From Acidobacteriota bacterium (lineage in GTDB: Bacteria; Acidobacteriota; Terriglobia; Bryobacterales; Bryobacteraceae): a stretch of DNA of 64,000 nucleotides. The stretch is taken from positions 1-64,000 of the forward strand of contig JAPKZB010000015.1 in assembly GCA_026393985.1 (NCBI GenBank), read 5' to 3'. The notes beneath the pieces are model-generated. The model was not told where the DNA came from. It ran no database searches and worked only from the letters and a program-made list of their open reading frames with translations. Positions within the stretch are counted from its first letter, which is position 1. Each line of letters starts with the position of its first letter. Both the position numbers and the translations under genes were made by a program. Shown here piece by piece: positions 2,937-31,304 of the stretch.

Positions 2937-2953
2937 TTGGCTCGCTCCGTGCA
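2937..2953 (+). promoter_or_regulatory. Sigma-54 (-24/-12) promoter before the first HDO gene
   Basis: TTGGCTCGCTCCGTGCA matches the YTGGCACGNNNNTTGCW consensus at 11 of 13 informative positions, with the GG and GC doublets exactly 12 bases apart start to start. The predicted transcript start near 2964 leaves a 22-base leader holding the AAAGGAGG ribosome site in front of the ATG at 2986. Confidence 0.6.
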
Positions 2954-2985
2954 ATTGCTGAGGCATGCCCTAAAGGAGGCCATCA

Positions 2986-4104
2986 ATGCTTCAGAACCCT
3001 ACCAGTATCCCTTCAAGCTCTACCACTAAGACGCCGAAGAACAAGAACCGGTTTCCAACCACTGAACACAATCCCTTATTCCAGGTCGTGACTGATTTAC
3101 TGCGCCATGATGCCACCGAGATTGACGAGCGCCTGGACCGCAACCCGTGGCGAAGGACAAGAGTGTTGAATCTGGCGAAGTCCCAGATTCGGAAAGCCTA
3201 CGTTGGCCGCGGAGACAGGCATGCTGAATTTGATGTTCAAAAGACACTGAGCACGTTGCTCCAGCTTCGCCTGACCAAACCTGCTCCGGGCCTAAGTTCG
3301 CCTGAAGGTTCGATCATCTTGAACACCCTTGAGACTTCGATTGAGCGCGGTATGCTCAATGCTCTTGATCGGTTTGTTCCGGTGACGCTCATGGCCGAAG
3401 CACCTTTCGATCCTCTTGCTTTCCAGCAGTATCTGCGACGGATGATCAAGGAAAGTCGCTCCTTCGATCATCCGTTCTACGTCGACTTCCTAGCTAATCA
3501 TGCAACGGCAGAAGATATCAGAGCATTCCTGGAGGCAGAGCTTTCCATAGATGGGAGGTTCGACGATCTGGTTGCGCTTGCACAGTTGGGGTTCTCCGGC
3601 GATGCCAAGATCGTGATGGGCGAAAACTACTACGACGAACTCGGGCGCGGTGATGTGTCGCTGATGCACACTGTCCTGTTTGAGAGCGCGCTCGCCGAAG
3701 TCGGAGCGATCGTGCGGGAAAGCCAAGAAGTTCCCCTCGAAGCCTATGAAGCGGGCAATCTTGCAGTCGTGCTTGCATCACGGCGCAGGTATTCCTACCT
3801 TTCGATTGGATTCTTGGCAGCTACCGAATTCCTGGTACCTCATCGCTTCCAGCATTTCATGACGGGATGGTTAAGGAACGGATTGAGCGAGAAGGGAGCC
3901 GTATACCATCGTGAACACATCAGTATCGATGGCGTTCATGCGCGTGACTGGTTCGAAAAGTTGATCGGGCCTGAAGTAGCGATGAACGCGGAGGCTCGTT
4001 GGGATATTGCGCGGGGCGTCATCTTCAGGCTCAGGAATTCAGAGCGATATTTGGATTCTTTGTACCAGTCCCTTGCCAAGGGGAGCGTTGGGAATGCCGC
4101 GTGA
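2986..4104 (+). CDS. Heme-oxygenase-fold diiron oxidase (HDO), iron-containing redox enzyme family
   Basis: A protein of 372 residues. The C-terminal 220 residues show the helical HDO pattern known from UndA, BesC and SznF: acidic residues in FLEAELSID (181-189), the signature ENYYDELGRGDVSLMH (213-228, candidate ligands D217/E218 and H228), E281 in ATEFLVPH, and H308/H311/D315/H318 in the last helices. HDO enzymes use O2 and a labile diiron site to oxidise or cleave amino-acid-like substrates. The N-terminal 110 residues are extra and unassigned. A strong AAAGGAGG site precedes the ATG. The flavoenzyme gene overlaps its end by 11 bases, so the two likely act on the same pathway. The substrate is not inferable from sequence. 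Confidence 0.8.
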   Translation: MLQNPTSIPSSSTTKTPKNKNRFPTTEHNPLFQVVTDLLRHDATEIDERLDRNPWRRTRVLNLAKSQIRKAYVGRGDRHAEFDVQKTLSTLLQLRLTKPAPGLSSPEGSIILNTLETSIERGMLNALDRFVPVTLMAEAPFDPLAFQQYLRRMIKESRSFDHPFYVDFLANHATAEDIRAFLEAELSIDGRFDDLVALAQLGFSGDAKIVMGENYYDELGRGDVSLMHTVLFESALAEVGAIVRESQEVPLEAYEAGNLAVVLASRRRYSYLSIGFLAATEFLVPHRFQHFMTGWLRNGLSEKGAVYHREHISIDGVHARDWFEKLIGPEVAMNAEARWDIARGVIFRLRNSERYLDSLYQSLAKGSVGNAA

Positions 4105-5509
4105 AAATCTCGCCCTGGAGTCGCTGCTAGGGCGAGATGCTCTTGTCAATTGGTTTCGCCCTCTCGACTTGCGTGAAACGCGGAGGCAGAATCTGCAGAA
4201 GGTTTCAATTGGCATAGTTGGAGCTGGCGTCGCTGGCCTTTGTGCCGGGTACGAATTAGCGAGACTCGGGTACAAAATAACTTTGCTAGAGGCCTCTCCG
4301 AGATTGGGTGGTCGCCTCTTTACGCACCACTTCTCGACCGACCAGCAAGGTGAACTCGGTGCCATGCGAATTCCCGGAGTTCATTCCGGCGTCTGGGAGT
4401 ATATTGACCGCTTCCAACTCGAAACGCGACGCTTTGGCTCAAGCCTTGTTCCATCGCATCAAAGCATCCATTCCGACGGTTCGGACGGTTTTCAATCTCT
4501 GTATCTTGGTCTCCTAAATGAGGTATGGAGAAACGTCCCGGGCACGGCCCTGCTCGATCTCAAAAGTAACCACCTAAGCCCGCCGTTTACAACATATGAG
4601 TCCCGGAGCGTGAAGGAATTCTTCTCGACCCAGATGAGTGCGAACAAATACTTGAATCTTCTCGCCGAGGAGCACATTGGGGCCTATGAGGAGTCATCAT
4701 TTTTCGAGACTGTTCTGGGCTTCATGAACTACAAACACCAGGACATGTACGAAATTGTAGGCGGTATGGAACGGCTCGTCACCGCATTCGCTGACTCAAT
4801 CCGGTCGCAACCTGGATGTGACATATTCCCGTTGACCGCCGTAGAGTCAATCCACACACATTGCCAGGGCGCTTCTATTATGTTCCGACCGTCCGCGCAA
4901 CCCCTGAAGACCCTGAAGTTCGACCTGGTTATCTGCGCGATTCCGCCATCAGCTTTGTCGGCAATCCTATTCACTCCGTCGCTTCCCAAATCCACAGTTG
5001 ATTGCCTCGGTTTTCAGCACATTCCTGCCTCAAAGACCTTGGCACTATTTAAGAAGCGCTTTTGGGCCGGGAATGCTGGCGGCGTCAAATACATCAACTC
5101 GCCGCTAGAGAGCATTTGGTATCCCTCCTCTGACGGCCGCGTCTTGACGGTTCAATATGGAAGAGGTGAGGCAGCACAATCCTTTTCAGCTCTAACGAGC
5201 TCCAAGCGGGAGGCCATTGTCGGCGACACTCTCAGCAAACTGCATCCGGGAGACCATATTGAAATTGAGGAGCTTGTTCACGAATCGTGGCGGTCCCCAA
5301 AAACAGGCGGCGGAGGCTTTTGTAGAAATAGACCGGGAGAACTCCGGCGCCAATGTGAAACTAAGCCGTGGAGCCCCACCCCACCAGATGCTCCCAGAAT
5401 ATTCTTCGCTGGTGAAGCATACAGCAAGACTCATGGCTGGATTCAAGGAGCTATAGAGTCTGCGCGAAGCACGGTTAACGAAATCGTCCTCCGGCTGGCG
5501 AAGTTATGA
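4094..5509 (+). CDS. FAD-dependent amine/L-amino-acid oxidase-like flavoprotein
   Basis: A protein of 471 residues from the ATG at 4094, chosen over an earlier in-frame start because AAGGGGAG lies just upstream and the Rossmann motif then sits near residue 40. It shows GAGVAG (43-48), E66 at the end of beta-2, the GGR motif (72-74) and the C-terminal FAD signature PRIFFAGEAYSKTHGWIQGA. This is the flavin monoamine oxidase / L-amino-acid oxidase superfamily, which oxidises amines or amino acids to imines. It is translationally coupled to the HDO gene and its last 6 bases overlap the convergent cupin-like gene. The substrate is unknown; an amino acid made by the neighbouring Sbn-like enzymes is a reasonable guess. 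Confidence 0.85.
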   Translation: MPRENLALESLLGRDALVNWFRPLDLRETRRQNLQKVSIGIVGAGVAGLCAGYELARLGYKITLLEASPRLGGRLFTHHFSTDQQGELGAMRIPGVHSGVWEYIDRFQLETRRFGSSLVPSHQSIHSDGSDGFQSLYLGLLNEVWRNVPGTALLDLKSNHLSPPFTTYESRSVKEFFSTQMSANKYLNLLAEEHIGAYEESSFFETVLGFMNYKHQDMYEIVGGMERLVTAFADSIRSQPGCDIFPLTAVESIHTHCQGASIMFRPSAQPLKTLKFDLVICAIPPSALSAILFTPSLPKSTVDCLGFQHIPASKTLALFKKRFWAGNAGGVKYINSPLESIWYPSSDGRVLTVQYGRGEAAQSFSALTSSKREAIVGDTLSKLHPGDHIEIEELVHESWRSPKTGGGGFCRNRPGELRRQCETKPWSPTPPDAPRIFFAGEAYSKTHGWIQGAIESARSTVNEIVLRLAKL

Positions 5510-6583
5510 GTGATCCCATGCGTCGTGGCTCCATACGTTTACCGTTCCATCTGGATCGTATAGAAGCACTCGCCCAACGGGACCAAAGTAGTTATCTAGC
5601 GCGAAATACCGCGTCTCTGCGTCGGGATCATCGATCACAGTCACCTGATGAGGTCGAAACAAACCATCCGTGATCTCAATTAAGTCACGACGGCTCTTGA
5701 GCACAGTTTCAGAGTCGAAGGCAGTCAAGCGGATCGGGCCAGAGGATGGCCAGATTTTAGAGATCGCGCCCGGGGTGGCTTGCGGTCGCAATCCTGGCAC
5801 AGTAGCAACACGTCGAACAAATCCTTCATCCAACGATCCATCGGCCGTAATCAAAGGCTCACCGGTATCGGTAAGCAGCTCAAATTCCTGCTCAAGTACG
5901 CAGGAAGTTGATCCATGGGATGTGAAGTAGACTGTTTCAAAGTTCATTGGATGAGAATGAATCGGAGTCGTAGTCGATCGGCGGGTACCATCCGAATCCA
6001 GGTAAGAATATGAAACCAGAAACTTCTCGAAGTAAAACCGTAGAATCTCACCGCCTATTTCTACAGGGAAGGTCGTTCGACAGACGGTGATCTTTGAGTA
6101 TGGATGTGACGGATCCGGCCCTACGCAGCGATGAAGGGCATCCAACGGGCGCCCGATCAATTCCGACGCAAACATTGTGTCTAGCATCTGGATCTCAGCT
6201 CCACAGGCCTCCAATTCGGAGATCGACAATGGTGCTGTTCCGCGCTTTCTAAGGGTAGAGATCGAGTCGAGGACTAAGCGCTGATACTTGTCAAACTGCG
6301 GATTGAGGCCTCCTAGCGACTCTGTGAAGAACAGACCGTCCTCCGACCGCAAAGGATAGTGTTCGGCACCAAGAGCGCCCTCATTGTGAAGATTCTTTAT
6401 GTCATTCGATTCAAGGAATTCCAGGCAACTCGACCGCCGACCATCTACGGAACAGACCATGGGCTCCAGGACGTGCCTGCCATCCTGACGAACCAAAAAC
6501 TCCTGCTCGCTTGGTCTCGGACTCCAATCGGAGAGTCTTTTAAAAAGCAGGGATACGGAGTCATCCCAACCATCAGAGGCCAT
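5504..6583 (-). CDS. Cupin-like metal-binding protein, unknown function
   Basis: A protein of 359 residues from the ATG at 6583, preceded by GGAGG with a 9-base spacer; a longer frame would overlap the upstream gene and lacks such a site. The second half contains HSHPMNFETVYF with H209, H211 and E216, and a late H312 in RPHQVTVIDD, matching the HxH(x)4E...H spacing of cupin metal sites. Family membership beyond that is not recognised. It is the last gene of the eight-gene minus-strand operon. It could be a dioxygenase or an isomerase of the pathway, or a sensor. The call rests on one motif. Confidence 0.45.
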   Translation of the reverse strand: MASDGWDDSVSLLFKRLSDWSPRPSEQEFLVRQDGRHVLEPMVCSVDGRRSSCLEFLESNDIKNLHNEGALGAEHYPLRSEDGLFFTESLGGLNPQFDKYQRLVLDSISTLRKRGTAPLSISELEACGAEIQMLDTMFASELIGRPLDALHRCVGPDPSHPYSKITVCRTTFPVEIGGEILRFYFEKFLVSYSYLDSDGTRRSTTTPIHSHPMNFETVYFTSHGSTSCVLEQEFELLTDTGEPLITADGSLDEGFVRRVATVPGLRPQATPGAISKIWPSSGPIRLTAFDSETVLKSRRDLIEITDGLFRPHQVTVIDDPDAETRYFALDNYFGPVGRVLLYDPDGTVNVWSHDAWDHS

Positions 6584-6650
6584 CTTCGTTTTCCTCCTTT
6601 CCCAACGTTGCGTGGCAATCTGATGCCATGCCACCATTTCGCCCTCTAAT

Positions 6651-8468
6651 CTAGCTGTCACTGATGTCACTCCTATCAATCTCCTTATCGGCTGGCTTTG
6701 CGAGGCTCTTCAATTCTTTGCGCATCAATTCATCGAATGCTGCACCGCTTAGACCGAATTCGTCCTGCATTTTCTGCAGCCATCGTTCGCATGTTTTCGA
6801 CTCCCAATCGCACTCGTCACTTGGATTCGCTATCCGATTGACGCAATCAACGCGCTTGAAGTTTCGAGGACGGCTGCTATCGGCAACTGCTCTCGTAAGC
6901 ATGTTGGACGCCAAAACCCCAATCGCATTCTGCAATCTCGGCCATGCGGACTTGACCTCTTCTGAGCTAAATGAATATTCTCGAATGGCGGTGAGAAGTT
7001 CCTCGTAGCGCCCAGTCCATCGTTTCTGCAACTCCGCGCCCGTGCGAAGGATGGCTGCATCGATGTCTCGAACATCAATGAGCCCAGTATATTCTCGGTC
7101 CGCCACAACCTGTTCGGACACGGCACGCAATTGTCGCACGTTGCCAGGCCACTCGTATTCATTGACCCGTCTCCTCGCTCGCGAAGAGATCGCCTTTTCT
7201 CGGCACGCTAGCATTTTCGTCTGACTAAGCACAAACCTTTCAAAAATCAATATTGCGTCGTCGGCACGAGCCCTCAGTGGCGGCACCGTCAACTTTGCTA
7301 AGCGATCAAACAGATCATCCGGAAACGTTCCCTTGCCGACCATCCCAGCCACGTCTTTGTTGGTTGTCATGACTATCTGGCAATTGATAACTCTGTCCTT
7401 GGTGTCTCCAACACGTTTGTAAGTTTCACTTTCAACTATGCGAAGGAGCATTTGTAAGCTTGCGAATCCAAGATTTCCGATCTCGTCAAGGTGGAGCGTT
7501 CCGCCCTTCGCCACTTCCAAGCAACCATCAAAATCTCGATCAGCACCGGTATACGCGCCCCTCACGGCTCCTTTGAGTCTGCTCTCGATCAGGCTCTCTG
7601 ACACCTCTTGAAGGTTAAGTGGCACTAACTCCCTTTTCCCGTTACCTTGCATCTTCGTACGGTCAACGTAGCTCCGCGCGGCCATCGCGTGATCATGCAG
7701 GTACTGCACAAACAACTCTTTCCCAGAGCCTCTCTCCGCCACCAATAGAACCCGTACATCGCGCTCCCGCAATAGCGACTTGCGTGCCTCTCTCAGAGCA
7801 CTCAGCAGACTGAGTGACCGCCCAAAGATTTCCGGTCGAGGCAGTCGGTCGATCATCGTGACGACACCCTCTGAGTCAATATGACGTAGCTCTCCATCTG
7901 CAACCAGCCCGATCTTGAATAACACCTTGCCAAGCTCGATCCTGAATTTCATTGAAGTCGAGCTATCGCCATCTCCCTTCCACTTTTCAAGAAAGGCGAC
8001 ATTCGTCTCCGTTTTCACCCTCCGCTCAACAAAAGTCGGATCATGGCTTGAAAGCATTACAACCGGAACTTCACAACTCCCCAACGAATCAGCCGAGTGT
8101 GTCCGCCAGCGATCTTCGATTGCCCTGAGTAGCTCCGCTCCGAAGAACTCAGTGCTAGGTTTGTCGCTGGATCCAACTACAAATTCCAGGTCGACACAGA
8201 CCAAGGCCCAACGTGAGCCGTCTGGGAAAGGCCACCCTCGTTCGATAGCTGCTAGGGCCTTCTTCGTGCTGTTCTCTACGTATCCGCTACTCAGCAGTTG
8301 GCCAGACTCGAATTGAACTTCTGCCAAAAACAACTTGGAGGGGGCCTTATCGATATCGCCGGAATCTGGCCCCTTAAGGCCCAGTGCCTTACAAAACCGC
8401 TCGCGACCGAGTACGTTATCGGGCTGGCCCAATACGTCGTCAATAATCAGAATCTTAGGTAAGCTCAT
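6651..8468 (-). CDS. Sigma-54-type AAA+ activator with receiver-like N terminus and no Fis HTH
   Basis: A protein of 605 residues. Residues 1-165 look like an enlarged receiver fold: IIDD (8-11), D93 in VCVDLEF, SS at 140-141, K163. Residues 215-460 are a bacterial enhancer-binding AAA+ domain: Walker A AERGSGKE (244-251), the sigma-54 contact loop GAYTGA (304-309), Walker B GGTLHLDEIG (322-331), arginine finger region DDLFDRL (384-390), and WPGNVRQLR. The last 130 residues do not show the usual Fis-type helix-turn-helix, so DNA targeting is unclear. Its start overlaps the end of the upstream gene in an ATGA. Sigma-54-like promoters stand in front of this operon and of two nearby units, its probable targets. 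Confidence 0.85.
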   Translation of the reverse strand: MSLPKILIIDDVLGQPDNVLGRERFCKALGLKGPDSGDIDKAPSKLFLAEVQFESGQLLSSGYVENSTKKALAAIERGWPFPDGSRWALVCVDLEFVVGSSDKPSTEFFGAELLRAIEDRWRTHSADSLGSCEVPVVMLSSHDPTFVERRVKTETNVAFLEKWKGDGDSSTSMKFRIELGKVLFKIGLVADGELRHIDSEGVVTMIDRLPRPEIFGRSLSLLSALREARKSLLRERDVRVLLVAERGSGKELFVQYLHDHAMAARSYVDRTKMQGNGKRELVPLNLQEVSESLIESRLKGAVRGAYTGADRDFDGCLEVAKGGTLHLDEIGNLGFASLQMLLRIVESETYKRVGDTKDRVINCQIVMTTNKDVAGMVGKGTFPDDLFDRLAKLTVPPLRARADDAILIFERFVLSQTKMLACREKAISSRARRRVNEYEWPGNVRQLRAVSEQVVADREYTGLIDVRDIDAAILRTGAELQKRWTGRYEELLTAIREYSFSSEEVKSAWPRLQNAIGVLASNMLTRAVADSSRPRNFKRVDCVNRIANPSDECDWESKTCERWLQKMQDEFGLSGAAFDELMRKELKSLAKPADKEIDRSDISDS

Positions 8469-9535
8469 GGATGAAGGTCGATTTCTCCCTGAAGGGTTTT
8501 ACACTCGATGAAAGTGGCCAGGCGTGTCGCTAGAACGGACGGATCTTGCCCGCCTCTCAGCCCGATTTCGGCATCATAGAGAGCGGCGAATATCCGCTTC
8601 TGCTCCTGTACTAGAATGCAGTTTTGTTCAAACGCCTGCCCAATGAGATTCTCCAGAATAGGGACGAGTTTCCCTCGGTCGAATACAGCTAGCCTCGCCG
8701 TCGCTTCGACAACGGCGTCGGTCGCCAGATGTGATGCAGTTTCGGCGAGTTGCCGAACCTCGTGGCATGCCTTCATAAGCTCTTCCGCGAAGCCAGATTC
8801 GCTATAGATCAGGTTCATTTGGCGAAGTCTGGTATGCTCCCAGGCTCTGAGCGCACTACAGGAACCACATCGAACCCGCGGTGATCCTATGCGGCTCCGA
8901 AGCTTGTTTGCGACTTCTCGCAGCACGTCAACCGACGGCACCGGCCCACACTCGACACCCTGCAGCGCGCAGTCTTTCACAATGAGATTCCAATTTAGTC
9001 CCTGAAGTGGGTCTTCGACCGTTCCCCCCTTCTCCATTAAGAAATCGAGAATTTGAGGAGTAAACACTCCATCAGAAATCTCGGGAGGCTCCAAAATCCA
9101 GTAAGGGACTCCGCCTGCATCAACCTTGCGAACGGCCTCCACGAAATTGCGAATTCGATTCACGATTTCAGGGTCTGGCCGGCTTGACACGACACTGGAG
9201 AGAACGTGAACTTTCGACGCGGGAAGACTGTAGCGCTCCAATTCTTCATTGGCGTGTACACGTGAATTAAGACCCGCATATTGTGCTGCCCTGAAGAACA
9301 CGACGCCTCTGAGATGATTGGGCCAAGAACCTTCAGTTACCAGTCGGGACAACAATGGGAACGCTTTAGCCACAATTTCATGCCACAACACAATGGTTGG
9401 TGTTTCAAAACAACCGATGTCCTTAAGGAAAACATCGTAGTCAGTCGACAACGAGGAAATCGAATCGAGGCCACATCCGAGCAGCGCTCGATGTTTGCTG
9501 ATTCGGCCTCTATCACTGGCGACAAACACTCTCAT
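8465..9535 (-). CDS. Unknown protein, possibly receiver-like N terminus
   Basis: A protein of 356 residues with no recognised family. The first 130 residues alternate hydrophobic strands and helices (RVFVASD, TPTIVLWHEIV, LRGVVFFRAAQ, KVHVLSSVV), which could be a degenerate receiver or Rossmann-like fold. A CGSC motif lies near residue 225, and the last 120 residues are predicted helical. The 4-base overlap with the activator gene downstream and the 2-base gap to the gene upstream argue for a shared complex, for example as a partner controlling the activator. No signal peptide or membrane segment is visible. Confidence 0.6.
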   Translation of the reverse strand: MRVFVASDRGRISKHRALLGCGLDSISSLSTDYDVFLKDIGCFETPTIVLWHEIVAKAFPLLSRLVTEGSWPNHLRGVVFFRAAQYAGLNSRVHANEELERYSLPASKVHVLSSVVSSRPDPEIVNRIRNFVEAVRKVDAGGVPYWILEPPEISDGVFTPQILDFLMEKGGTVEDPLQGLNWNLIVKDCALQGVECGPVPSVDVLREVANKLRSRIGSPRVRCGSCSALRAWEHTRLRQMNLIYSESGFAEELMKACHEVRQLAETASHLATDAVVEATARLAVFDRGKLVPILENLIGQAFEQNCILVQEQKRIFAALYDAEIGLRGGQDPSVLATRLATFIECKTLQGEIDLHP

Positions 9536-9537
9536 AG

Positions 9538-11520
9538 TTACCCCTCATGAGCCCCTTGCTCTATCCTAAACGCCGTCACGTACGCGAAAGTAAAGTCGCC
9601 CGCATCAAAGTATTCACGTGCCGGCTTTATGACAACGTCGCCCTCGATAAAGCGATGGTCCCGATAAGATGACGGCGGGTCAGACCAGATTACCTGATCC
9701 TTGCCGTTGGCTCGCCAAAACCAAACCCACTCAACAGAATGTCCTAAGCCCTTTTGCTGCTTTGCCCAAGAACTAAGTCCAAACGTTGCACTACCCGTAC
9801 CCTTCCCACCCTCAGTCGATCCGCGCCAGAAAATCCCGACCAATATCGGCCCGCCAGACTCCGACTCTTCTCCATTAAATCCATTGAACAATACAATTTC
9901 ACAGGCAAGCTTTTCCTGGGACTGTGGCGGATTGCGTCGCTCCTCGATGAACACGTCGATGAATCCCCAGATGTCCTCCACCGAGACCGGGCATGGAAGA
10001 TCAAAGACATCCTTTTTGTTTGACCCGCAGTAATACCCAACGGTTGTTTTCAAACCGTTCGCTAGTCTTATTGCCGCAGGTCGAAGCAGCGAGCGCGGAA
10101 CGCCGCTGACCACACAGGCTAAGCAATCCTGCTCAGAATTTCGGATCTCGCCCGGAACAACTCGACTGAGCATTGTTCGATCATTCTGGCATCGAAGGTA
10201 TCGCTCTCCGTGGTCGTTTCCATCAAAGACCGAACATTCCAACGGTAGTCTTGGCCCTAAGCTAACAAGCGACAGTCTAGCCGGTTGCTGGGAGGTTCGC
10301 ACACTAATTCCCCGGATCAGGTTCTCCAAACCAATTGCCAAATCTGTTTGCCGGAAATGCGTCAAGCGTTGCCACAGATCTCGATCGTACTCGTCTCGAG
10401 GCATAGCCGTCTTCCAGCTTTGGAGTCTCTCCTGAAAAGAAAGCGTGTGCCACTCCGTAGTACTGCCCAAGAATTCGTTTAGATCTGTTTGGATACCTGC
10501 AAGCGCCTGCTCTTTCAGATCATCAAACCTGTCGCGAACGCGCCTTTGAACTTCTGATGAAATGGCAGAGTCAACATTGCGGTAAGGGAAATAGCATCCA
10601 TGTCTAACGTAGATGCACAATACAGATCGAAGAAATTCAACACTAAGCCATTCGTCACTCTCATTTAGGAATGAAGTTACACTGGAAACGTTGTTACTCA
10701 AAAAGTCCGTCATTAAATCATGATCGGCATGAGTGTCAGAAAGTTCGTTCAGGACGTTCTTGAGATGGCGGCTGATAGCGTCAATCACAGAACTCCCACC
10801 CTTTCGGGTCCAGTCTGCAGTGACGTCTGGCACCAGCAAGGCTGTAACATCACGAGACGGCCCCGGAAGTGTCCACCAGCGAACTCGTTTGGCTTTTCGA
10901 TCTTTCTGAGCGAGTTGCCTGTATTCTACATTTAAGAATTCGTGCCACGGAGTAAAGGTCGCTACGACGTCAGATTCGGGGAGAAGCGACTCGACCCGGT
11001 CACGTTGCTCGTTCATTGCTTGATCAAGCGGATGAAAATTGGGGCGCGAAGATTTCAGAAGAGGAAGCGACTGGAAAATCGTTCTCACGAAATCTCCACT
11101 GGTGGTTTTTATTGGATACGCCCAGACTCGTTTACCAGGAGGAGGGGAACTTGTGTCTCCTCTCCACAAGAGCCAGTGCGGTTGGCGCCAAACCACCGGT
11201 AGTCGTCTGACCATGATGTGGTCGCGCCTCAAGCTACCATAATTCTCCGATTCGGGGTAAATCTGAAGCGAACGCTGTGGGCCTGGTTCACAAAGAGCCA
11301 AGACAGCATGCCCCTTCTCGGCACGGGCGTAAAACTCATTTCGGATCAATTCGTCCGTGACAACCTCTTCACTGCGGGGTTCTAGTTGGAACTTTACCGT
11401 GTTGTTGAACTGGCGTTCAGTTCGAGCTAAAGCCAAATACACGGGCCAGTGGAGCCACAATGTGGGCCAAGTGATCACCCAGATCGTCGAAACATTGGTT
11501 GCGCTGGCGGATTCTGCCAT
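9538..11520 (-). CDS. Cytosolic solute-binding-protein-like domain fused to an unknown C-terminal region
   Basis: A protein of 660 residues from the ATG that shares its A with the permease stop codon (TGATG), a classic coupled start; an upstream Met in frame is less likely. Residues 10-240 resemble the NMT1/TauA periplasmic-binding fold: IWVITWPTLWLHWPVYLAL, then VLALCEP, a WAYPIKTTSGDFVRTIF segment and VVATFTPWHEFL. No signal peptide or lipobox is present, so it should stay in the cytosol. The C-terminal part has a cysteine group (C-SVFDG, LRCQND, DCLACV, YYCGS) that might bind metal. Its place directly after a matching ABC permease suggests it senses the imported ligand. The fold call is from pattern similarity only. 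Confidence 0.5.
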   Translation of the reverse strand: MAESASATNVSTIWVITWPTLWLHWPVYLALARTERQFNNTVKFQLEPRSEEVVTDELIRNEFYARAEKGHAVLALCEPGPQRSLQIYPESENYGSLRRDHIMVRRLPVVWRQPHWLLWRGDTSSPPPGKRVWAYPIKTTSGDFVRTIFQSLPLLKSSRPNFHPLDQAMNEQRDRVESLLPESDVVATFTPWHEFLNVEYRQLAQKDRKAKRVRWWTLPGPSRDVTALLVPDVTADWTRKGGSSVIDAISRHLKNVLNELSDTHADHDLMTDFLSNNVSSVTSFLNESDEWLSVEFLRSVLCIYVRHGCYFPYRNVDSAISSEVQRRVRDRFDDLKEQALAGIQTDLNEFLGSTTEWHTLSFQERLQSWKTAMPRDEYDRDLWQRLTHFRQTDLAIGLENLIRGISVRTSQQPARLSLVSLGPRLPLECSVFDGNDHGERYLRCQNDRTMLSRVVPGEIRNSEQDCLACVVSGVPRSLLRPAAIRLANGLKTTVGYYCGSNKKDVFDLPCPVSVEDIWGFIDVFIEERRNPPQSQEKLACEIVLFNGFNGEESESGGPILVGIFWRGSTEGGKGTGSATFGLSSWAKQQKGLGHSVEWVWFWRANGKDQVIWSDPPSSYRDHRFIEGDVVIKPAREYFDAGDFTFAYVTAFRIEQGAHEG

Positions 11521-20235: not shown

Positions 20236-20347
20236 TCTGGTCTACTGCCTCACTAGTCTCGACCGAGCGGAGCGCCGAAAGCACTTGACTCTCGGAAGCC
20301 AAGGTTGATGCCTTTGCCGCTAAACCCCCGATCTGTTGAAGGTACAT
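20228..20347 (-). CDS. Possible 39-residue protein between the Hsp70-like and GrpE-like genes
   Basis: An open frame starting at the ATG at 20347 encodes MYLQQIGGLAAKASTLASES and 19 more residues, and ends 8 bases inside the GrpE-like gene, a coupling-type overlap. It fills the 134-base gap between two otherwise adjacent genes. There is no family match and the ribosome site is weak; it may be chance. Confidence 0.3.
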   Translation of the reverse strand: MYLQQIGGLAAKASTLASESQVLSALRSVETSEAVDQNG

Positions 20348-20369
20348 CGCCGACCCAGCGAAGACACTC

Positions 20370-23524: not shown

Positions 23525-23575
23525 TGCACGTCCTTTAAGCCTGTCCATCATGAATGAGGCAAGCAGCCTCGGCAC

Positions 23576-24580: not shown

Positions 24581-25585
24581 CTATTCCAAGAATGTGCCTC
24601 TCTTTTCGAGAAGCGCCTTTCGATACACCATCGTCGCGACAGCAAGATCTTCGATTCCCATGCCCATTGGGTTGAAATAGACGAATTCATCGTCCGATTG
24701 ACGCCCAACCTTTCTTCCGGAGATAATCTCACCGATTTCGGCCCACACTTGTTCTCGAGAAAACCGTCCTTCAGTGACTAAGCGGTGCAATAGCTTTTCC
24801 TCTCGACAGCAGTCTTCAAAACAATCAACCACGACCTTGTCGGCACTGAGGAACACTTCGGGCGTCACGTCATCGAGAGAGAGAGCCACGATCAAAGAAT
24901 TGTCACGACTCAGCATGTCTGGCGTGACATATGCTTTACTTCCGGTCGTCGCGAGTACAACAGCCCGGCATTCGCTTAAACAAGAAGCAGCCGTGTCGAC
25001 AACGTCAATGCTTGCTCCAGTTTCTTTGGTCAACCGTTCCGCCAGGTCTTCCGCTCTTTGCCTGCGGGGATCGTAGAGCTTGAAGCCCGCAACTCGAGGC
25101 GCCTCGACCAAAGCCCTCAGCACGGCAACTGCGATGGGTCCTGCCCCAAAGACACTGACAAGTTGATTTGAATCCGATGAAGCAAGGTGTTGAAATGCAA
25201 GCGCGGCTGTTGCTGCGGTACGTCTCGCTGAGAGCTCTCCGCACTCCATGACTGCCAAAGGGAAGCCCGTCTCGGTTGAGTTCAAAACAAAGACCCCCGA
25301 AGCACGGGGCAAGCCTCTATCGACATTGCAGGGAAACCCGGCGATGATTTTGATACCTGCCGATTCAAAGTCGCCGCCCAGATAGGAGGGCATAAAGATG
25401 AAGCGTCCCCGATTGAATTCGTCTTCTCGACCGCCAGGTCGGATATAGGGTTTCAGGGGCTGCTGAAAGAGGCCTTTCGAATGGAGTTCGAGGGCTCGCC
25501 CCACAGCCACCGCCGCCTCCTCTGGTGAGAGGAGGTCGGCGACGGTCTCGTCGTTCAGCCATAGAAGTCGATTACTGCCGGGCAT
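24581..25585 (-). CDS. sbnB: SbnB-like N-(2-amino-2-carboxyethyl)-L-glutamate dehydrogenase, ornithine cyclodeaminase family
   Basis: A protein of 334 residues. RGRFIFMPSYLGG, AGIKIIAGFPCNVDRGLPRAS, LNSTETGFPLAVMECGELSARRTAA and the Rossmann motif FGAGPIAV fit SbnB, the NAD-dependent enzyme that releases L-2,3-diaminopropionate from the SbnA product. Late ALSLDDVTPEVF and GMGIEDLAVATM are family features. An SbnA-like gene is in the same operon, which favours this over ornithine cyclodeaminase or ketimine reductase. The start overlaps the methyltransferase gene by 14 bases. Confidence 0.78.
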   Translation of the reverse strand: MPGSNRLLWLNDETVADLLSPEEAAVAVGRALELHSKGLFQQPLKPYIRPGGREDEFNRGRFIFMPSYLGGDFESAGIKIIAGFPCNVDRGLPRASGVFVLNSTETGFPLAVMECGELSARRTAATAALAFQHLASSDSNQLVSVFGAGPIAVAVLRALVEAPRVAGFKLYDPRRQRAEDLAERLTKETGASIDVVDTAASCLSECRAVVLATTGSKAYVTPDMLSRDNSLIVALSLDDVTPEVFLSADKVVVDCFEDCCREEKLLHRLVTEGRFSREQVWAEIGEIISGRKVGRQSDDEFVYFNPMGMGIEDLAVATMVYRKALLEKRGTFLE

Positions 25586-26285
25586 GGTTCAATCCTTTCC
25601 GAGCCAGAACTACGAATGAGTCGTGGACGTGAGGCTCAGGTCGAAAGTCACCATGTGGAGGGTCTACCCAGGTTGATTTCTTGATTTCCACGTCTTCCCA
25701 GTCCGCTACCAGCATCCGGACCGACGCCTCGGTGAAATATTTGAACAGGCAGTCCTTGTACAAGAACGACATTGAATCAACCGGGGTGCCCTTTCCGAAG
25801 GTTCCGTCCTGCGTGGAGTAGACGTTAAAGAGAAGCAGCCCGCCCGGACGCAGAACCCGGTGGAAACTGGCGATCGCCGGACTTGGATCTGCGAGTTGCC
25901 CAAGAGTGTCGGCGCAGACCACCAAGTCGAAGGGCCCGGCGACTCTCAAATCGGAAATGTCGTCCACCGAAAATACGACGCGGTTGTGACAAGTCCGTAC
26001 CGACCGTTCCGCCGCCAAGTTGATTGCGGTAGGGGCAATATCTACTCCGACTACAAAATACCCTTCCCGCGCAAGGGCCAAACTATTACGAGCATCTCCA
26101 CAGCCGGCGTCGAGCACTCGTGTCACGTTTCCGCGACGGAGTTCGGCAAGCAAATGAGCATCTTCTAAAAATGGAATCGGGCGCTCTTGCCACAAAAACG
26201 GCACATCTTGTGAAGAGGCGCCTGTGAGCGCTTGACTCTTATAAGCCTCTTCCCATCCGTTAACTACACTCTGCTTTTCAGTCAT
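25572..26285 (-). CDS. Class I SAM-dependent methyltransferase
   Basis: A protein of 237 residues from the ATG at 26285, preceded by AAAAGGAGAC; a much longer frame upstream overlaps the SbnA-like gene and is rejected. Motif I is VLDAGCGDARNSLALAREG, then VGVDIAP, and FDLVVCADTLGQL for motif II, with LRPGGLLLFNVYS. Such enzymes methylate small molecules. Its place between the SbnA- and SbnB-like genes suggests N-, O- or C-methylation of a diaminopropionate-derived compound. The acceptor is unknown. Confidence 0.85.
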   Translation of the reverse strand: MTEKQSVVNGWEEAYKSQALTGASSQDVPFLWQERPIPFLEDAHLLAELRRGNVTRVLDAGCGDARNSLALAREGYFVVGVDIAPTAINLAAERSVRTCHNRVVFSVDDISDLRVAGPFDLVVCADTLGQLADPSPAIASFHRVLRPGGLLLFNVYSTQDGTFGKGTPVDSMSFLYKDCLFKYFTEASVRMLVADWEDVEIKKSTWVDPPHGDFRPEPHVHDSFVVLARKGLNHARQ

Positions 26286-26298: not shown

Positions 26299-27288
26299 TT
26301 AGTTGAGGTTGATATTATGCTTGGCCAACCAAGCTGGATCGAAAACTGTTTCCTCGTACGATTCCCCGCCGTCCGGCAGAAGCACGACAATCCGCTTTCC
26401 GGATACTTGAGAAGCCACCCGCCGAACGGCGGCGATCGCGGCACCACTGCTCCCTCCTGCCCAGATACCCTCTTCAGCGCGAAGCCAGTGAGCAGCCTTG
26501 AATGCCTCTTCATCGCCTATGATCTGAGGTTTGCAACCGCACATCGCAGGGTATGCTCGTATAACGTTGTTGCACCTTATGTGAGCCCCCAGGCCCGTGA
26601 GAAGGTGTTTGCCCGGATTGTTTCCCAAGATTGCGGACCCCTCACAATCGACCGGAACTGCGGCGAGGCCATCATTCAGACCTCTAAGCGAGAATGCCGT
26701 TCCGCCGAATGTGCCGCCAGTGCCGATGGGTGAAACCATGATGTCAACCTGGCCTGCGGTGTAGTTCCAGATGTATGGCCCAGTAAAATAGTAGTGACCC
26801 GCTAGAGCCCCAACATTGGAGTATTGGTCTAAGTCAACAGAGTGCGGAGTCGAACGAACCAACGCAGCCACGGCTTTGAGCCGGGCACCGAGGTATCCGC
26901 TCAGTGGATCTGGACTCGATACCTCGACAATGTCCGCCCCAAGATCCAAAAGTTCTTTCTTCTTGCCGGGTGCAGTCCGCGGATCAATTACTGGATGGAA
27001 TTTGACGCCACTACCGTGTAACAACAGAGCAGCGGCGATCCCTGTGTTTCCACTGGTGGAGGCGAAGATATGCTCGATACGCCCGCTCTTTTGTTGCACC
27101 AAGTTTGCGAGCATGCCAACCACTGAGATGAACTTCAGACTGCCCGAAGGAAGTCTTGAGCCCAAGAACGCCGTCACATTGTTGCCCGTTTGTTCAGATA
27201 GTTTCGGCAAGTCCACCATAAGCGGAAGACTGTGTGGATTGGTTCCGAACTTCTCGAATGCTTGTCTCAGGATGCTGATCATACTCAT
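26299..27288 (-). CDS. sbnA: SbnA-like PLP-dependent synthase, cysteine synthase family
   Basis: A protein of 329 residues. The PLP lysine is K52 in PSGSLKF; STSGNTG (77-83) and GTGGTFGG (189-196) bind substrate carboxylate and phosphate, DQYSN at 154-158, and GGSSGAAIAAV late. In the Sbn pathway SbnA condenses O-phosphoserine with glutamate, and SbnB then yields L-2,3-diaminopropionate. Together with the SbnB-like gene two genes down this supports that route over cysteine synthesis. There is no Fe-S or heme domain. The upstream leader is short and the ribosome site weak, so the first or third codon (both Met) could be the start. Confidence 0.78.
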   Translation of the reverse strand: MSMISILRQAFEKFGTNPHSLPLMVDLPKLSEQTGNNVTAFLGSRLPSGSLKFISVVGMLANLVQQKSGRIEHIFASTSGNTGIAAALLLHGSGVKFHPVIDPRTAPGKKKELLDLGADIVEVSSPDPLSGYLGARLKAVAALVRSTPHSVDLDQYSNVGALAGHYYFTGPYIWNYTAGQVDIMVSPIGTGGTFGGTAFSLRGLNDGLAAVPVDCEGSAILGNNPGKHLLTGLGAHIRCNNVIRAYPAMCGCKPQIIGDEEAFKAAHWLRAEEGIWAGGSSGAAIAAVRRVASQVSGKRIVVLLPDGGESYEETVFDPAWLAKHNINLN

Positions 27289-28139
27289 AGCAATTGCATG
27301 CAGGTCGCCATTCCGGCGTTTAGGCTAAATGATTGAAAACGCAAGCTGCAACTTCGTCCCGTTGTTCTGCTAACCGGTGCTTCCTGTGGATGCGGTCAGA
27401 CGGGACTGGCTCAAACGTCAGGCGCTGCAGAAAGTGGTTAGGTCTGCCGGTGAGTCAACCTGGTCAAGCCGGTGGGCAAATCTACGCTGCACCAACTTTT
27501 GGCCTTACGCACGCTCAGTCGCGGATGCATGCGGAATATCCGCCGCGCGCCGGTCCTTAGCCCTCTGGCCTTCAGATCCGCGTAGTTCTCCCTGAACACA
27601 GGCTGCGGATAATTCTGTCGCTCGACAGGTCAATACCATCTTCTTAAAGCGCATGAGCTTATCCCTGCGGTGGCATCAACTCATTTCGGCGTTAAGGGTT
27701 CGAATGAACTTGGAATATTGCGACTTCACATCTGTTTAAGGAATCAGAGGAACAATGACGATGGCGAGGACCGAGCAGAAGTGGCCATGAACATGTGATT
27801 CAGGAACCGCACGACGTTCCGCCAGCTTCGCGCATGCTGGGAGAAGATGAGCGGGACTGGTCCCGACGAATGAGTAGATCGAGCAGAAAGAATGACGGGA
27901 GCGGCAAACTGAAATTCGGAATCACGAGTGGAGCTTTACGGGATCTTCTTCGCCATCACCAAAGATGACGGCGCGTTCATTGCGTATTTGTGTAGTGCCC
28001 TGACAGAGGCCGAAAACGATGAAGGTTCTGGGGGAGGCGTGAAGCAACGGCGGTGGAACAGTTCCGGCAAAATCGACATCACGGTGCAGGGTAGCAAGCC
28101 TATTCGATGAATTCGCGCTAATGGTTGCAGGCGGGGGCG
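27289..28139. other. Long non-coding stretch between divergent operons
   Basis: No gene is supported; short open frames lack family matches. It carries the promoter of the minus-strand Sbn operon at its left end. A partial -24/-12 match at 27295-27311 has the right spacing but would start transcription inside the start codon. Confidence 0.5.
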
Positions 28140-28265
28140 CGCATGCAGCAGGCCCAGGAAGACTTCGAGCGGAGTAGGCGACCTTTGCAGTGAATTTCGG
28201 CGATTACACGCTGAACGATTTCAACTCCCAGATTCGTCGTACCAAGAAGCCACGGCGGCTGCATA
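28140..28265 (+). pseudogene. Possible remnant of an ffh (SRP54) gene
   Basis: One frame reads QQAQEDFERSRR and, after a stop and shift, FGDYTLNDFNSQIRRTKK, resembling the start of the Ffh M domain (AQE..., FTLEDFLEQLQQVKK). The stretch is about 40 codons with a stop and a frame change, so no product is made. The match is short and could be chance. Confidence 0.25.
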
Positions 28266-28419
28266 AACATATCTTGTGTGTCTGCTTCTGTCCTTCGTAG
28301 GGATGTTCCTCACGGGAGGACGACAATTCCGCCAGTGTGAAACGGCGTATCTGTCAGCCGGAGCCCTGGATGTAAAAGCTCGCGAAGCGGAAAGACTCAA
28401 ATAATCAACAAGTTGCAGT

Positions 28420-28436
28420 TTGGCTTGTAGCTTGCT
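28420..28436 (+). promoter_or_regulatory. Sigma-54 (-24/-12) promoter before the second HDO gene
   Basis: TTGGCTTGTAGCTTGCT matches YTGGCACGNNNNTTGCW at 11 of 13 informative positions with exact doublet spacing. The transcript would start near 28447 and carry a leader of about 160 bases before the TTG at 28607, much longer than at the two other sites. Confidence 0.55.
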
Positions 28437-28606
28437 TCATTCTGTTCAGCACACTCTTGAAACGCAGGAGTTCATCCGCAACATAAGTGAGTTGATCTTT
28501 ATTGAGAAGGCCTTCGACTCGACAAAGCTGCCCGCAGTTCAAGAGAAGAGATGTAGTTCCGGTTGACAAGCTGGAACCCAGCGCAAACCTGAGGAGGAAA
28601 GTCACC

Positions 28607-29614
28607 TTGAAGTCCCGCATATCCAAAGAGTCTCCCGAGCTGCAGAACATGACGTGGCCCCCTGTCGAGGCATTTGATCCCGCGAAGACATGTCCACTCT
28701 TAATGGATGTCGGGGATCTGCCCAGCTCAACGATCCATGCCCATCTAGCGTTGCTTTATCCCTACTGGTTCGGCTATCGCAACTCGCCTCTATATCAGAG
28801 CTCAGATGAATCCACTGAGATTCAGTTACACGGAGTACGCATCAAGCTAGAGCAACGGTTGCTAAACATGGAGCCACTTTCGCTGGTTTCGGTAGTCAAT
28901 GGACCGCACGATCAACGTTCACTTGCGCGCAGACTTCGACTGCTGGTTGAATCAAACAGAGGAGTATCTCATCCCTTCTTCGACTACTGCGCAGCTGACG
29001 CCGGGTTAAGCGAAATGCGCAAAGTCGCGATGAACGAAGTCTGCCGCAATGAGATCGTAGACGATGAAGTGGCAATGATGTTGCCAGGCCTCAGCGGGTT
29101 GATTAAAAATGCAATTGCATTGAACCTCGCGGATGAAATGGGGCATGGGATTATACGGAACCAACACAGTTATTGGTTGAGACAACAGCTTTCAGACAAT
29201 GATGAAGTCGAGACTGGGTCTTTCCTTAAGTACCGCCGGACCAGAGCGTGGTACCTCAACATTCCCAGTAACGTCTTCAACGCATTGTTGCTGCGCCCTG
29301 GATATCGCTGGGCGGCCTTCGGCTATTTTTTGATTACCGAGAGTTGGGTCGCACCGCATTTCGAGAAGTTGATTCAAGGATTTGAACGAGTCGGCTACTC
29401 GCGTCAACTGAAGTATTTCACTGCACATGAGAAACTGGATCGCCTTCATGGCGAGGAACTGCTCGAAGCCCTGGACTACCAGTTGCCAAAACTGACCGAA
29501 CGAGAGGTCACGTTGATTGAATGGGGGGCGGGCTTGGCCATCGAGGCCGGTGTTCAGTACTTTGACCATTTCTTGGCCGAACTAAGAGCGGTGGAGGTGC
29601 CGGGAGATGAGTAA
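28607..29614 (+). CDS. Second heme-oxygenase-fold diiron oxidase (HDO)
   Basis: A protein of 335 residues if it starts at the TTG at 28607, which has GAGGAGGAAA 7 bases upstream; the next ATG (28649) has no such site. The core shows HPFFDYCAADAG, RNEIVDDEVAM, the signature NLADEMGHG with a following HSYW, ESWVAPHFEKL, and YFTAHEKLDRLHGEEL, which supply the carboxylates and histidines of an HDO diiron site. The fold is the same as in the first HDO of this window, but the two sequences are clearly different. Its end overlaps the next gene by 8 bases. Confidence 0.75.
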   Translation: MKSRISKESPELQNMTWPPVEAFDPAKTCPLLMDVGDLPSSTIHAHLALLYPYWFGYRNSPLYQSSDESTEIQLHGVRIKLEQRLLNMEPLSLVSVVNGPHDQRSLARRLRLLVESNRGVSHPFFDYCAADAGLSEMRKVAMNEVCRNEIVDDEVAMMLPGLSGLIKNAIALNLADEMGHGIIRNQHSYWLRQQLSDNDEVETGSFLKYRRTRAWYLNIPSNVFNALLLRPGYRWAAFGYFLITESWVAPHFEKLIQGFERVGYSRQLKYFTAHEKLDRLHGEELLEALDYQLPKLTEREVTLIEWGAGLAIEAGVQYFDHFLAELRAVEVPGDE

Positions 29615-30014
29615 AGACACTGTAACGAGGGCACGTGAACACCGATGTCCGGGGCATTACCCGCATGAGGAAATCCAGCCAATCCGCGATGGACTTGATC
29701 GAGCAACTGTCGCTTGTAAACAATCCCTGTTCTTGGATGAGCTGACTGGCCGCATGTGGCGGGTTGTAAGCGATGAGTCTCGGGTTCCTAATCTCGGTCG
29801 CCTCGCAGAGTATGCGAAAGCGACAAACCTCAATGAAATATCTCTTAAGGTACTGGAAAAACACTCACCACGCCACTTGATATGCGTTGTCGATACATGC
29901 CTTCTTGAATATGAGATGGTGAGTTTCACATCGACTAATGGAGTGGCTGAAATGATTTCACCCTTCGACCTTACCGAAACGATGCAGGCTCTACTCTGGC
30001 CTGTATCGGACTAA
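29607..30014 (+). CDS. Small unknown protein coupled to the second HDO
   Basis: A protein of 135 residues, no family recognised. It has no membrane segment. The middle (LGRLAEYAKATNLNEISLKVLEKH) is helical and the end (LICVVDTCLLEYEMVSF) is strand-rich. The 8-base overlap with the HDO gene and the 42-base gap to the DUF1015 gene place it in the same transcript. It may be a carrier, chaperone or subunit for the oxidase. Confidence 0.6.
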   Translation: MSKDTVTRAREHRCPGHYPHEEIQPIRDGLDRATVACKQSLFLDELTGRMWRVVSDESRVPNLGRLAEYAKATNLNEISLKVLEKHSPRHLICVVDTCLLEYEMVSFTSTNGVAEMISPFDLTETMQALLWPVSD

Positions 30015-30056
30015 CTACTCAGACGCAGTTCACTTTCGAACCGAGTCATAAACACA

Positions 30057-31304
30057 ATGCCGACTATACACCCATTCGCCCCATACCAATTCTCGCGTGA
30101 CGCGGGGCGGCTCGAAGAACTGGTGGTCCCATCAGGTGGAGCCGTCACGCTGGCGCACCGCCAGCGGTATCTGTCTATCAACCCGAACAACATCACCAGA
30201 GCGTTCTGCGCTATGGGGAGCCAATTTGAGGACAGTGTGGAGCAGAGCGCGCTGGCTTCCAGAAAGGAGTTTGATCTTCTGATTCGCCGCGGAATTCTCG
30301 AGCGCAGAAGTACATCATCGCTCTTCGCCTGTTTTCAGAACTTTCGCATGCCGGATTCGGGCGAGTTGCTGACAAGGAAGTTGCTCATCGGCCTCGGCGA
30401 GGTTGAATCCTATGGATCGAAGAATATCTATCGACACGAGCAAACCCTGCCCCAGCGGAAGGCCGATCAGGAACGATTCTTACAAATAGCTGGGATCCAG
30501 TTTGACCCGATCCTAATGCTGTATTCGGATAATGAGTTCTCGATCGAACCCATCATGGACAGCGTAGCTCTCAACACTACCCCGGTCGCCGAAGTCATGG
30601 ACGATGATCAGGTGTTGCATCGACTCTATGAGATTTCAAATCCACATTGCATCGCCAAGATCCAAACTGCACTCCATTCTCAAAGATTACTGATCGCCGA
30701 CGGCCACCACCGCTATGAGGCAGCACTCGCCTTAATGCACGCAAATCGAGGCCTGGGTGAGGCTTTCGGAGTACCAATGGCTCTTGCAAACATCCGGGAG
30801 GCTGGCCATCGCCACCTGGCGACGCACCGTGTGCTGAACGGATTGACTAACTTCAGTCTTGGATCATTTATTTCTTCCGTTAAGCGACGATTTGTAGTGG
30901 TGGAACTTGACTCTGTCTCTGATCTGGTTCGATGGTGGAGCGTGGATCCAGGTAACCATTCTCACATCGGGATTGTGGTGCCTGATTCAAATGGGGTGAC
31001 AGTCTTGAAGAGTCGGTGCACAGCGAGGAGTAACGTGGAGATGCTCCATGACGAACTTATCCAGGGCATCCTGGGTGTCAGCACTTCAAACGCCGACTGT
31101 GGTGGACTGATTCATTATGTTCGCGGCTTAGAAGCCGCAACTTCAATGGTACGTTCAGGAGCCGGTCAAGTCGGGTTTCTACTCACTCCAACTCCCCTTG
31201 AGCAGGTGTTTTCTGCGGTCTTGGACAGAGGCACACTCTTGCCTCCAAAGTCCACTGACTTCTATCCCAAGGTGCCAAGCGGTCTCGTGATGCATCTGGT
31301 GTGA
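30057..31304 (+). CDS. DUF1015 family protein
   Basis: A protein of 415 residues. The family marks are ADGHHRYEAAL in the middle and PPKSTDFYPKVPSGLVMH at the C terminus. DUF1015 proteins are widespread, of about 400 residues, and have been linked by gene context to serine metabolism; their reaction is not established. Here the gene ends the second HDO transcript, near a diaminopropionate operon that would draw on phosphoserine, which fits that association. Confidence 0.85.
   Translation: MPTIHPFAPYQFSRDAGRLEELVVPSGGAVTLAHRQRYLSINPNNITRAFCAMGSQFEDSVEQSALASRKEFDLLIRRGILERRSTSSLFACFQNFRMPDSGELLTRKLLIGLGEVESYGSKNIYRHEQTLPQRKADQERFLQIAGIQFDPILMLYSDNEFSIEPIMDSVALNTTPVAEVMDDDQVLHRLYEISNPHCIAKIQTALHSQRLLIADGHHRYEAALALMHANRGLGEAFGVPMALANIREAGHRHLATHRVLNGLTNFSLGSFISSVKRRFVVVELDSVSDLVRWWSVDPGNHSHIGIVVPDSNGVTVLKSRCTARSNVEMLHDELIQGILGVSTSNADCGGLIHYVRGLEAATSMVRSGAGQVGFLLTPTPLEQVFSAVLDRGTLLPPKSTDFYPKVPSGLVMHLV

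Follow-up and report, generated by a model that had tools for sequence, protein, structure and literature searches.

A candidate island-borne gene cluster for an N-oxygenated 2,3-diaminopropionate-derived amino acid in an Acidobacteriota bacterium

What might a bacterium make from homologues of the 2,3-diaminopropionate (Dap) enzymes SbnA and SbnB, placed beside two heme-oxygenase-fold diiron enzymes (HDOs) and a sigma-54 activator? The question is raised by positions 2937-31304 of a 64,000-nucleotide stretch of Acidobacteriota DNA (contig JAPKZB010000015.1 of assembly GCA_026393985.1), hereafter the window, which is the start of its 143-kb contig. We interpret this region as a cryptic, horizontally acquired pathway in which Dap would be made and then N-oxygenated by the HDOs, with its units under a dedicated sigma-54 activator, and we put the probability of this reading at about one half. 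Our best guess at the product is an N-oxygenated Dap-derived amino acid. An initial annotation, made from the sequence without database searches, had proposed a cluster of this kind, and curated family models confirmed all the gene families that it had placed here: two PF14518 HDOs, a flavin adenine dinucleotide (FAD) amine oxidase, a PF00291 enzyme, an OCD/SbnB protein, a class I methyltransferase, AsnB, an NMT1 importer, and a sigma-54 AAA+ activator. Its overall interpretation holds in part, namely for Dap supply and N-oxygenation, and was not borne out by conservation in the relatives sampled; a DUF1015 protein, a DUF2000 protein, an Hsp70-like block, and the surrounding genomic island were absent from it. 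No nonribosomal peptide synthetase (NRPS) or polyketide synthase genes were found in the region scanned, and the gene set was not found described in a literature search from which subscription papers were largely out of reach. As a compact set of genes without assembly-line enzymes, the locus would make oxidised Dap chemistry open to test.

The best-supported part of the pathway is the predicted route from serine through O-phosphoserine and N-(1-amino-1-carboxyl-2-ethyl)-glutamic acid (ACEGA) to Dap. The Dap unit runs along the minus strand from 27288 to 24071 and encodes an SbnA-like pyridoxal phosphate (PLP) enzyme (26299-27288), a class I S-adenosylmethionine methyltransferase (25572-26285; PF13847 among other models, with ATG 26285 preceded by AGGAG), an SbnB-like dehydrogenase (24581-25585), and the DUF2000 protein (24071-24571; PF09391). 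The first two genes are separated by a 13-bp gap, the methyltransferase and SbnB-like genes overlap by 14 bp, and 9 bp lie before the DUF2000 gene. Divergent from this unit is a plus-strand set of three genes (28607-31304) that encodes one of the diiron enzymes (HDO2), a 135-aa protein, and the DUF1015 protein; the intervening 1.3 kb (27289-28606) contains, apart from the beginning of the HDO2 open reading frame (ORF) at 28502, no ORF of 90 aa. The assignment of the predicted ACEGA dehydrogenase as SbnB is well supported by a TIGR03944 score of 289.2 bits, 137 bits above the next family, and by its best match in the PDB, 4m54 (E 4.4e-55), which we take to be SbnB of Staphylococcus aureus.

The SbnA-like protein, predicted to join O-phosphoserine and glutamate to ACEGA, scores 191 bits against TIGR03945, compared with 153 bits against the best cysteine synthase model. 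The available part of one paper gives Arg132, Tyr152, and Ser185 of SbnA as the residues that select O-phosphoserine (PMC12414870). The window protein keeps the PLP lysine (K52), the loop serine S79 that corresponds to Ser75 of SbnA, and the equivalents of the first two selecting residues, R136 and Y156. In an alignment of 15 PLP-enzyme rows, from which the non-homologous Strept335_PLP2 was set aside, the Arg132 equivalent, along with the small insert that accompanies it, occurs in all nine phosphoserine-type rows (the window protein, four SbnA, and four CysK-like proteins with kinase or DUF1015 neighbours) and in none of the five cysteine-synthase-type rows, one of which adjoins a serine O-acetyltransferase. 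The Tyr152 equivalent is found in 9/9 and 1/5 of the same rows, and the tree separates the nine rows from the five at 97/96. This PLP family has two further matches in the host genome. That the SbnA and SbnB homologues form Dap, as the initial annotation had it, is supported at the level of sequence, and the case is strengthened by Arg136 and Tyr156 and by DUF1015 as a candidate source of O-phosphoserine. Given the kinase likeness of DUF1015, the residues of the SbnA-like enzyme, and the SbnB assignment, the entire route from serine to Dap can be encoded here.

The DUF1015 protein (30057-31304, plus strand; PF06245, 152.7 bits) is a predicted ParB-fold free serine kinase, on the basis of matches of a family profile to known structures and of the neighbours of its relatives. 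When a profile of 22 DUF1015 proteins was searched against 177,635 PDB sequences, four sequences appeared at E ≤5, three of them named free serine kinase (SerK) and the fourth being 1vk1, a ‘conserved hypothetical protein’ that is presumably the Pyrococcus SerK homologue. The three alignments shown cover DGHHR and then a C-terminal PPKST/SPKTT motif (PK[ST]T) in the same order, and the window protein keeps both as ADGHHR (214-219) and PPKST (396-400). An hhalign comparison of DUF1015 with SbnI-like proteins gave 90% over 21 columns, at the DGHHR segment. Two gene orders agree with the prediction: serC-serA-DUF1015 in Enterococcus gilvus and a CysK-like gene, a major facilitator superfamily (MFS) gene, and DUF1015 on a Streptomyces longwoodensis plasmid (L054:6433-10176), the latter likely a second phosphoserine-using pathway. 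Other neighbourhoods were uninformative (cobalamin genes in Thiodictyon, homoserine and aspartate kinase genes in Monoglobus, unannotated genes in Listeria). To our knowledge few free-serine kinases are known, namely SerK and SbnI. Archaeal serK genes adjoin serA and aminotransferase genes, according to the portion available of PMC5120207. A relation between DUF1015 and the ParB fold is not wholly new, because a ParB-fold survey, in the part available, already lists ‘DU1015’ among domains fused to that fold and names both SerK and SbnI (PMC12704722); our literature search found no paper on DUF1015 as a serine kinase. The family is present in 51 of 60 sampled genomes of the phylum, the present one included, and the idea is a concrete serine/phosphoserine kinase hypothesis for a widespread domain, whose reach, if true, would extend far beyond this cluster.

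The N-oxygenation step is predicted from the two HDOs, whose PF14518 scores of 103.7 and 78.7 bits exceed the cut-off of 28.9. HDO1 (2986-4104, plus strand) resembles the N-oxygenases HrmI and BelK, which we take to belong to hormaomycin and belactosin biosynthesis, respectively, and its match to HrmI (E 1.1e-50) marks a close sequence relation. HDO2 (28607-29614, plus strand) probably starts at TTG 28607, behind AGGAGG, and its PDB matches at E ≤1 are HrmI (2.8e-7), 9pfw (9.4e-5), and PbrRohS (0.0079); the orphan 135-aa gene that follows (29607-30014) belongs to no family. HrmI oxidises the side-chain amine of lysine to a nitro group, as stated in the accessible part of PMC13108848, and the corresponding part of PMC11705231 gives the ligands of SznF as E215/H225/E281/H311/D315/H318. 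At positions with SznF spacing, six residues are invariant over nine aligned HDOs, both enzymes of the window included; in HDO1 they are E218/H228/E281/H311/D315/H318, assigned by spacing from an alignment without SznF. The initial annotation had named UndA, BesC, and SznF as HDOs that oxidise or cleave amino-acid substrates and had proposed a Dap-derived amino acid or an N-oxygenated product. The affinity of HDO1 for HrmI, and weakly that of HDO2, favours an N-oxygenated product as far as sequences can tell, and nothing points to BesC- or UndA-type cleavage in particular. Directly after HDO1, completing the unit at 2986-5509, lies the gene for an FAD L-amino-acid oxidase (4094-5509, plus strand; PF01593), for which ATG 4094 is assumed in an ORF that opens at TTG 4007; its best PDB matches are L-amino acid oxidases (1e-33).

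The following sequence of events may then be envisaged. DUF1015 would phosphorylate free serine, the SbnA-like enzyme would swap the phosphate for glutamate to give ACEGA, and SbnB would oxidise ACEGA to L-2,3-diaminopropionate and 2-oxoglutarate. HDO2 could oxygenate an amine of Dap or methylated Dap to a hydroxylamine, oxime, or nitro group, HDO1 could form a nitro group from a side-chain amine, either that of lysine or that of the same Dap unit, and the amino-acid oxidase may convert the alpha-amine to a keto acid. The methyltransferase and AsnB may, at a guess, tailor or amidate the product. The bolder claim that this is a new type of pathway, with DUF1015 proteins as an additional free-serine-kinase family serving Dap synthesis, an HDO that oxygenates the Dap amine (giving, e.g., 3-nitroalanine or N-hydroxy-Dap), a second, HrmI-like HDO, and one sigma-54 activator, is advanced tentatively, and we think it rather unlikely to hold in full.

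A number of observations weigh against the proposed pathway. Both Dap enzymes fall below their NCBIfam equivalog cut-offs, the SbnB-like protein with 289.2 vs 326.9 bits (TIGR03944) and the SbnA-like protein with 191.4 vs 349.95 bits (TIGR03945). The latter has Gly189 at the position of Ser185 in SbnA, a glycine that it has in common with the kinase-linked CysK-like proteins, and reads FI after the PLP lysine where other rows read DR or similar; its branch is very long (2.11), the best tree puts it beside the CysK group (89/88), and forcing it with SbnA costs 4.35 log-likelihood units, an arrangement that the approximately unbiased test does not reject (p-AU 0.10). The matches between DUF1015 and SerK are individually weak (E 0.055-0.92), and the window protein lacks the N-terminal PYDV of its family, having SGGA at 26-29. 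No annotated amino-acid oxidase lies beside any of the four HDO1 relatives that were opened. The link of the Dap unit to the importer/AsnB and HDO1 units is confined to promoters, composition, and position. Finally, HDO2 was found in 0/150 sampled relatives (1/151 counting its own genome), and a three-sequence HDO2 profile at E 1e-20 matched 0/395 other genomes of the phylum (1/396). A relative with the set conserved, which had been named as the test of the cluster, was consequently not seen in these two samples, where neither SbnA nor SbnB was looked for by itself: none of the sampled relatives can hold the whole set, because HDO2 is in none of them. HDO1 matched in 3/396 genomes of the phylum, its own and two with weak partial matches.

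Outside the relatives, HDO2 has three counterparts, on a Sulfuriferula nivalis plasmid (37% identity), in Trinickia fusca (39%), and in a low-GC genome. At E 1e-30, 3/399 sampled genomes of Trinickia's order gave matches (Trinickia, the low-GC genome, and one other), and the HDO2 scans yielded one relative on a genome contig (Trinickia) and none among viral contigs. In Sulfuriferula and Trinickia the HDO gene is followed by a GHMP kinase gene and an R132-type CysK-like gene; the third relative (L099) is without both, and the lack of a CysK-like gene among the ORFs of its 13-kb contig counts against the proposed pathway. The Sulfuriferula plasmid (L007:14986-26071) and the Trinickia chromosome (L019:9923-19343) have in common an operon of HDO, GHMP kinase, CysK-like, ATP-grasp, ArgH, MFS, PhzF, and ATP-grasp genes, of which we found no published description and whose product could be a 2,3-diamino acid, formed through an aspartate adduct that loses fumarate. 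These clusters hold the closest kin of HDO2 and share with the window a kinase and an R132-type CysK-like enzyme; they differ in having a GHMP kinase, ArgH, and ATP-grasp ligases where the window has DUF1015 and SbnB.

Comparison with characterised systems sharpens what is unusual here. The Dap supply of staphyloferrin B (SbnI-SbnA-SbnB) is alike in its free serine kinase, its ligation of O-phosphoserine and glutamate, and its ACEGA dehydrogenase, whereas in the window DUF1015 would replace SbnI, the SbnA-like protein is divergent, and a methyltransferase and an HDO stand in place of IucA/IucC synthetases, which the region lacks. Another possibility is that the locus supplies a metallophore precursor, Dap and N-oxygenated groups binding metal as in Dap siderophores, with the assembly genes elsewhere. 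In line with it, sbnA/sbnB lie inside IucA/IucC siderophore operons at three of the four plasmid loci opened, and at the fourth they belong to an NRPS cluster; but no IucA/IucC, NRPS, or siderophore receptor is found among the genes scanned in 2.9-31.3 kb, and we consider such a role a slim prospect. The L-alanosine cluster (ala/aln) is alike in that Dap is thought to be N-hydroxylated, a step ascribed, in the part of PMC11705231 available, to the flavin acyl-CoA-dehydrogenase-like AlaD/AlnG, with the cupin AlnA. Diiron HDOs stand here in place of the flavin AlaD/AlnG. HDO1 is alike to the HrmI and BelK enzymes in its 1e-50 match to HrmI and differs in its setting, adjoining an L-amino-acid oxidase and no 2-oxoglutarate (2OG)-Fe dioxygenase. 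On plasmids, two of the four HDO1 relatives opened lie beside such a dioxygenase (HDO1 is 35% identical to both), and the other two have a neighbour that belongs to no Pfam family. At L106:7806-10478 and L107:8085-10713 (Agrobacterium vitis and a Streptomyces plasmid), an HrmI-like HDO has as its neighbours a 2OG-Fe dioxygenase and an epimerase annotated as dapF.

The methyltransferase suggests a further use of Dap, in which the enzyme encoded between SbnA and SbnB would methylate it and free N-methyl-Dap, i.e., β-N-methylamino-L-alanine (BMAA), would be product or intermediate. The SbnA-methyltransferase-SbnB order within so tight an operon fits this idea, and one of the published hypotheses on BMAA has it arise by methylation of Dap, according to the available portion of PMC9414260. 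However, the methyltransferase has no specific relative in the PDB, its best match reaching only 4.5e-11 among mixed functions, and nothing favours N- over O-methylation or Dap as the acceptor. We therefore regard BMAA formation as very improbable.

Returning to the proposed pathway of Dap formation and N-oxygenation, its units would be joined through regulation. We scanned 2001-32000 on both strands for the -24/-12 consensus, using base weights with a maximum score of 28. Five sites score at least 25 of 28, as against 1.3 ± 1.2 in 30 first-order shuffles, and there is none elsewhere in the window. Four of them lie upstream of unit starts: 2938-2953 (plus strand), 48 bp before HDO1; 15757-15772 (minus strand), the best of the region at 26.5 and 51 bp before the binding-protein operon; 23821-23836 (minus strand; score 25), 261 bp before the gene of the Hsp70-like block that starts at 23575; and 28421-28436 (plus strand; score 25.5), 186 bp before TTG 28607 of HDO2 and 81 bp before the start of its longest ORF. 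The fifth (19734, minus strand) is inside a gene, and the site before the SbnA-like gene, 22 bp from its ATG, scores only 23. Twelve starts were tried, two of them HDO2 alternatives, and the starts of four units reach 25; among 5000 random 300-bp draws from that region, real sites included, 2.4% reached that score. The initial annotation had noted promoters of this type before three units, and such sites were found here before four.

The presumptive regulator is the divergent sigma-54 AAA+ activator (6651-8468, minus strand; PF00158, 125.7 bits, above cut-off), which keeps the GAYTGA loop, Walker B, and DLFDRL, with a Walker A that reads AERGSGKE. The sigma-54 N-terminal domain is matched once in the genome, and PF00158 exceeds its cut-off 20 times. 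Of these 20 matches, 15 reach at least 129 bits, and the local activator is the lowest among those 15 (129 vs ≥213). Under its action the HDO1 unit, the importer/AsnB operon, and the HDO2 unit may be expressed jointly. The shared sigma-54 control put forward earlier is plausible in view of the sites and the GAYTGA loop, the regulation itself being predicted from sequence motifs.

The activator is encoded in an eight-gene minus-strand operon (15721-5504), which begins with an NMT1/SsuA-type substrate-binding protein (14705-15721; PF09084 above cut-off, TIGR01728 at 62 bits, under its cut-off) and continues with an AsnB-type amidotransferase (13114-14700), an ABC importer ATPase (12275-13117; PF00005), and the importer permease (11520-12329; PF00528). 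AsnB starts with MCGIAAV, Cys2 included, and scores 339 bits vs a cut-off of 267 in TIGR01536, and 361 vs 499, below cut-off, in PRK09431. Two orphan proteins precede the activator, one of 670 aa (9538-11550; no family) and one of 356 aa (8465-9535; unassigned in Pfam and NCBIfam at E 0.001/0.01), and a 391-aa orphan (5504-6679; no Pfam or NCBIfam family) closes the operon. Such a gene content could also be read as nitrogen scavenging, the NMT1-type importer taking in an amine or amino acid that HDO1, the oxidase, and AsnB oxidise, banking its nitrogen under RpoN. The importer, L-amino-acid oxidase, and AsnB families that it calls for are all present, and RpoN is classically linked to nitrogen control. 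On the other hand, the Dap-making SbnA/SbnB pair and the serine kinase would be anabolic, and the characterised HrmI/BelK enzymes are biosynthetic, so that scavenging appears improbable to us.

The 391-aa orphan occurs in 1/297 genomes of the phylum and the 670-aa orphan in 1/61 relatives, in both cases the own genome only; a cupin nature considered for the former is not proposed, its single-sequence fold model being uninformative (pLDDT, a model confidence score, 35.5), and comparison by BLASTP with the binding protein of the cluster lent no support to a binding-protein-like domain considered for the latter. Searches of plasmids by tblastn with these two proteins and that encoded at 22130-23575 gave no match.

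Between this operon and the Dap unit lies the Hsp70-like block (15961-23575, minus strand), consisting of an Hsp70-like ATPase (20370-22133; PF00012, 31.8 bits) and four orphan proteins, whose membership of the pathway is doubtful. Full-length relatives of the ATPase, 28-32% identical, occur on eight Streptomyces plasmids. At the three such loci that were opened the Hsp70-like gene is followed by a hypothetical gene of 236-243 aa, and no neighbour's annotation points to kinship with the other units. By BLASTP, the protein encoded at 19339-20235 is unrelated to the gene beside the Hsp70-like gene on two of the plasmids, as is that encoded at 22130-23575 to a third gene at the plasmid locus. Weak Hsp70-type matches in 26/61 relatives reflect generic DnaK kinship only. 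The block looks like separate cargo, despite its promoter-like site. Both it and the importer/AsnB block are tied to the Dap pathway by position, composition, and promoters only, a tie that we regard as unproven.

These blocks lie on what appears to be an integrated island (window 1-40595, low GC), whose left side runs off the contig. GC is 52.8% over 2937-31304 vs 63.8 ± 1.8% across 20 stretches sampled from the genome, an 11-point deficit, and climbs between 40 and 44 kb, at a tyrosine integrase (38851-40233, plus strand; PF00589) and a tRNA-Asn (40596-40670, minus strand) that marks the boundary at the GC step. Because of the low GC and the integrase set against tRNA-Asn, the cluster is probably horizontally acquired cargo of the island, with the far end outside this assembly piece; no second copy of the tRNA-Asn 3' end is present in the window (exact matches of at least 14 bases). 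The same features are what would be expected if the Dap/HDO2, HDO1/oxidase, importer/AsnB/activator, and Hsp70 parts were independent cargo of one mobile island, and so are the Streptomyces plasmid relatives of the Hsp70-like protein without cluster neighbours and the lack of co-conservation in the genomes sampled. Against such a patchwork speak the sigma-54-like sites before four units (each a 2.4% chance per 300 bp) together with the island's own activator, the lack of any other site in the window save the one inside an island gene, and the similar third-position GC of the cluster genes (0.53-0.63). We hold it to be a serious, if doubtful, possibility.

An Rfam scan of 1-42000 at the gathering score found tRNA only and no other element, also in the 1.3-kb gap between the SbnA-like gene and HDO2. 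At 34613-38540 the island carries a gene for an S41 protease with a PDZ domain adjoining a TPR-CHAT protease gene. Also among the encoded proteins is a TonB-type receptor bearing a carboxypeptidase-regulatory domain, a combination that hints at Acidobacteriota. A defence system was not read from a PADLOC run on ten proteins, which gave an RtcR/PspF-type AAA+ likeness for the activator, matched the CHAT gene (35817-38540) weakly to TPR and BovA, and was otherwise marginal.

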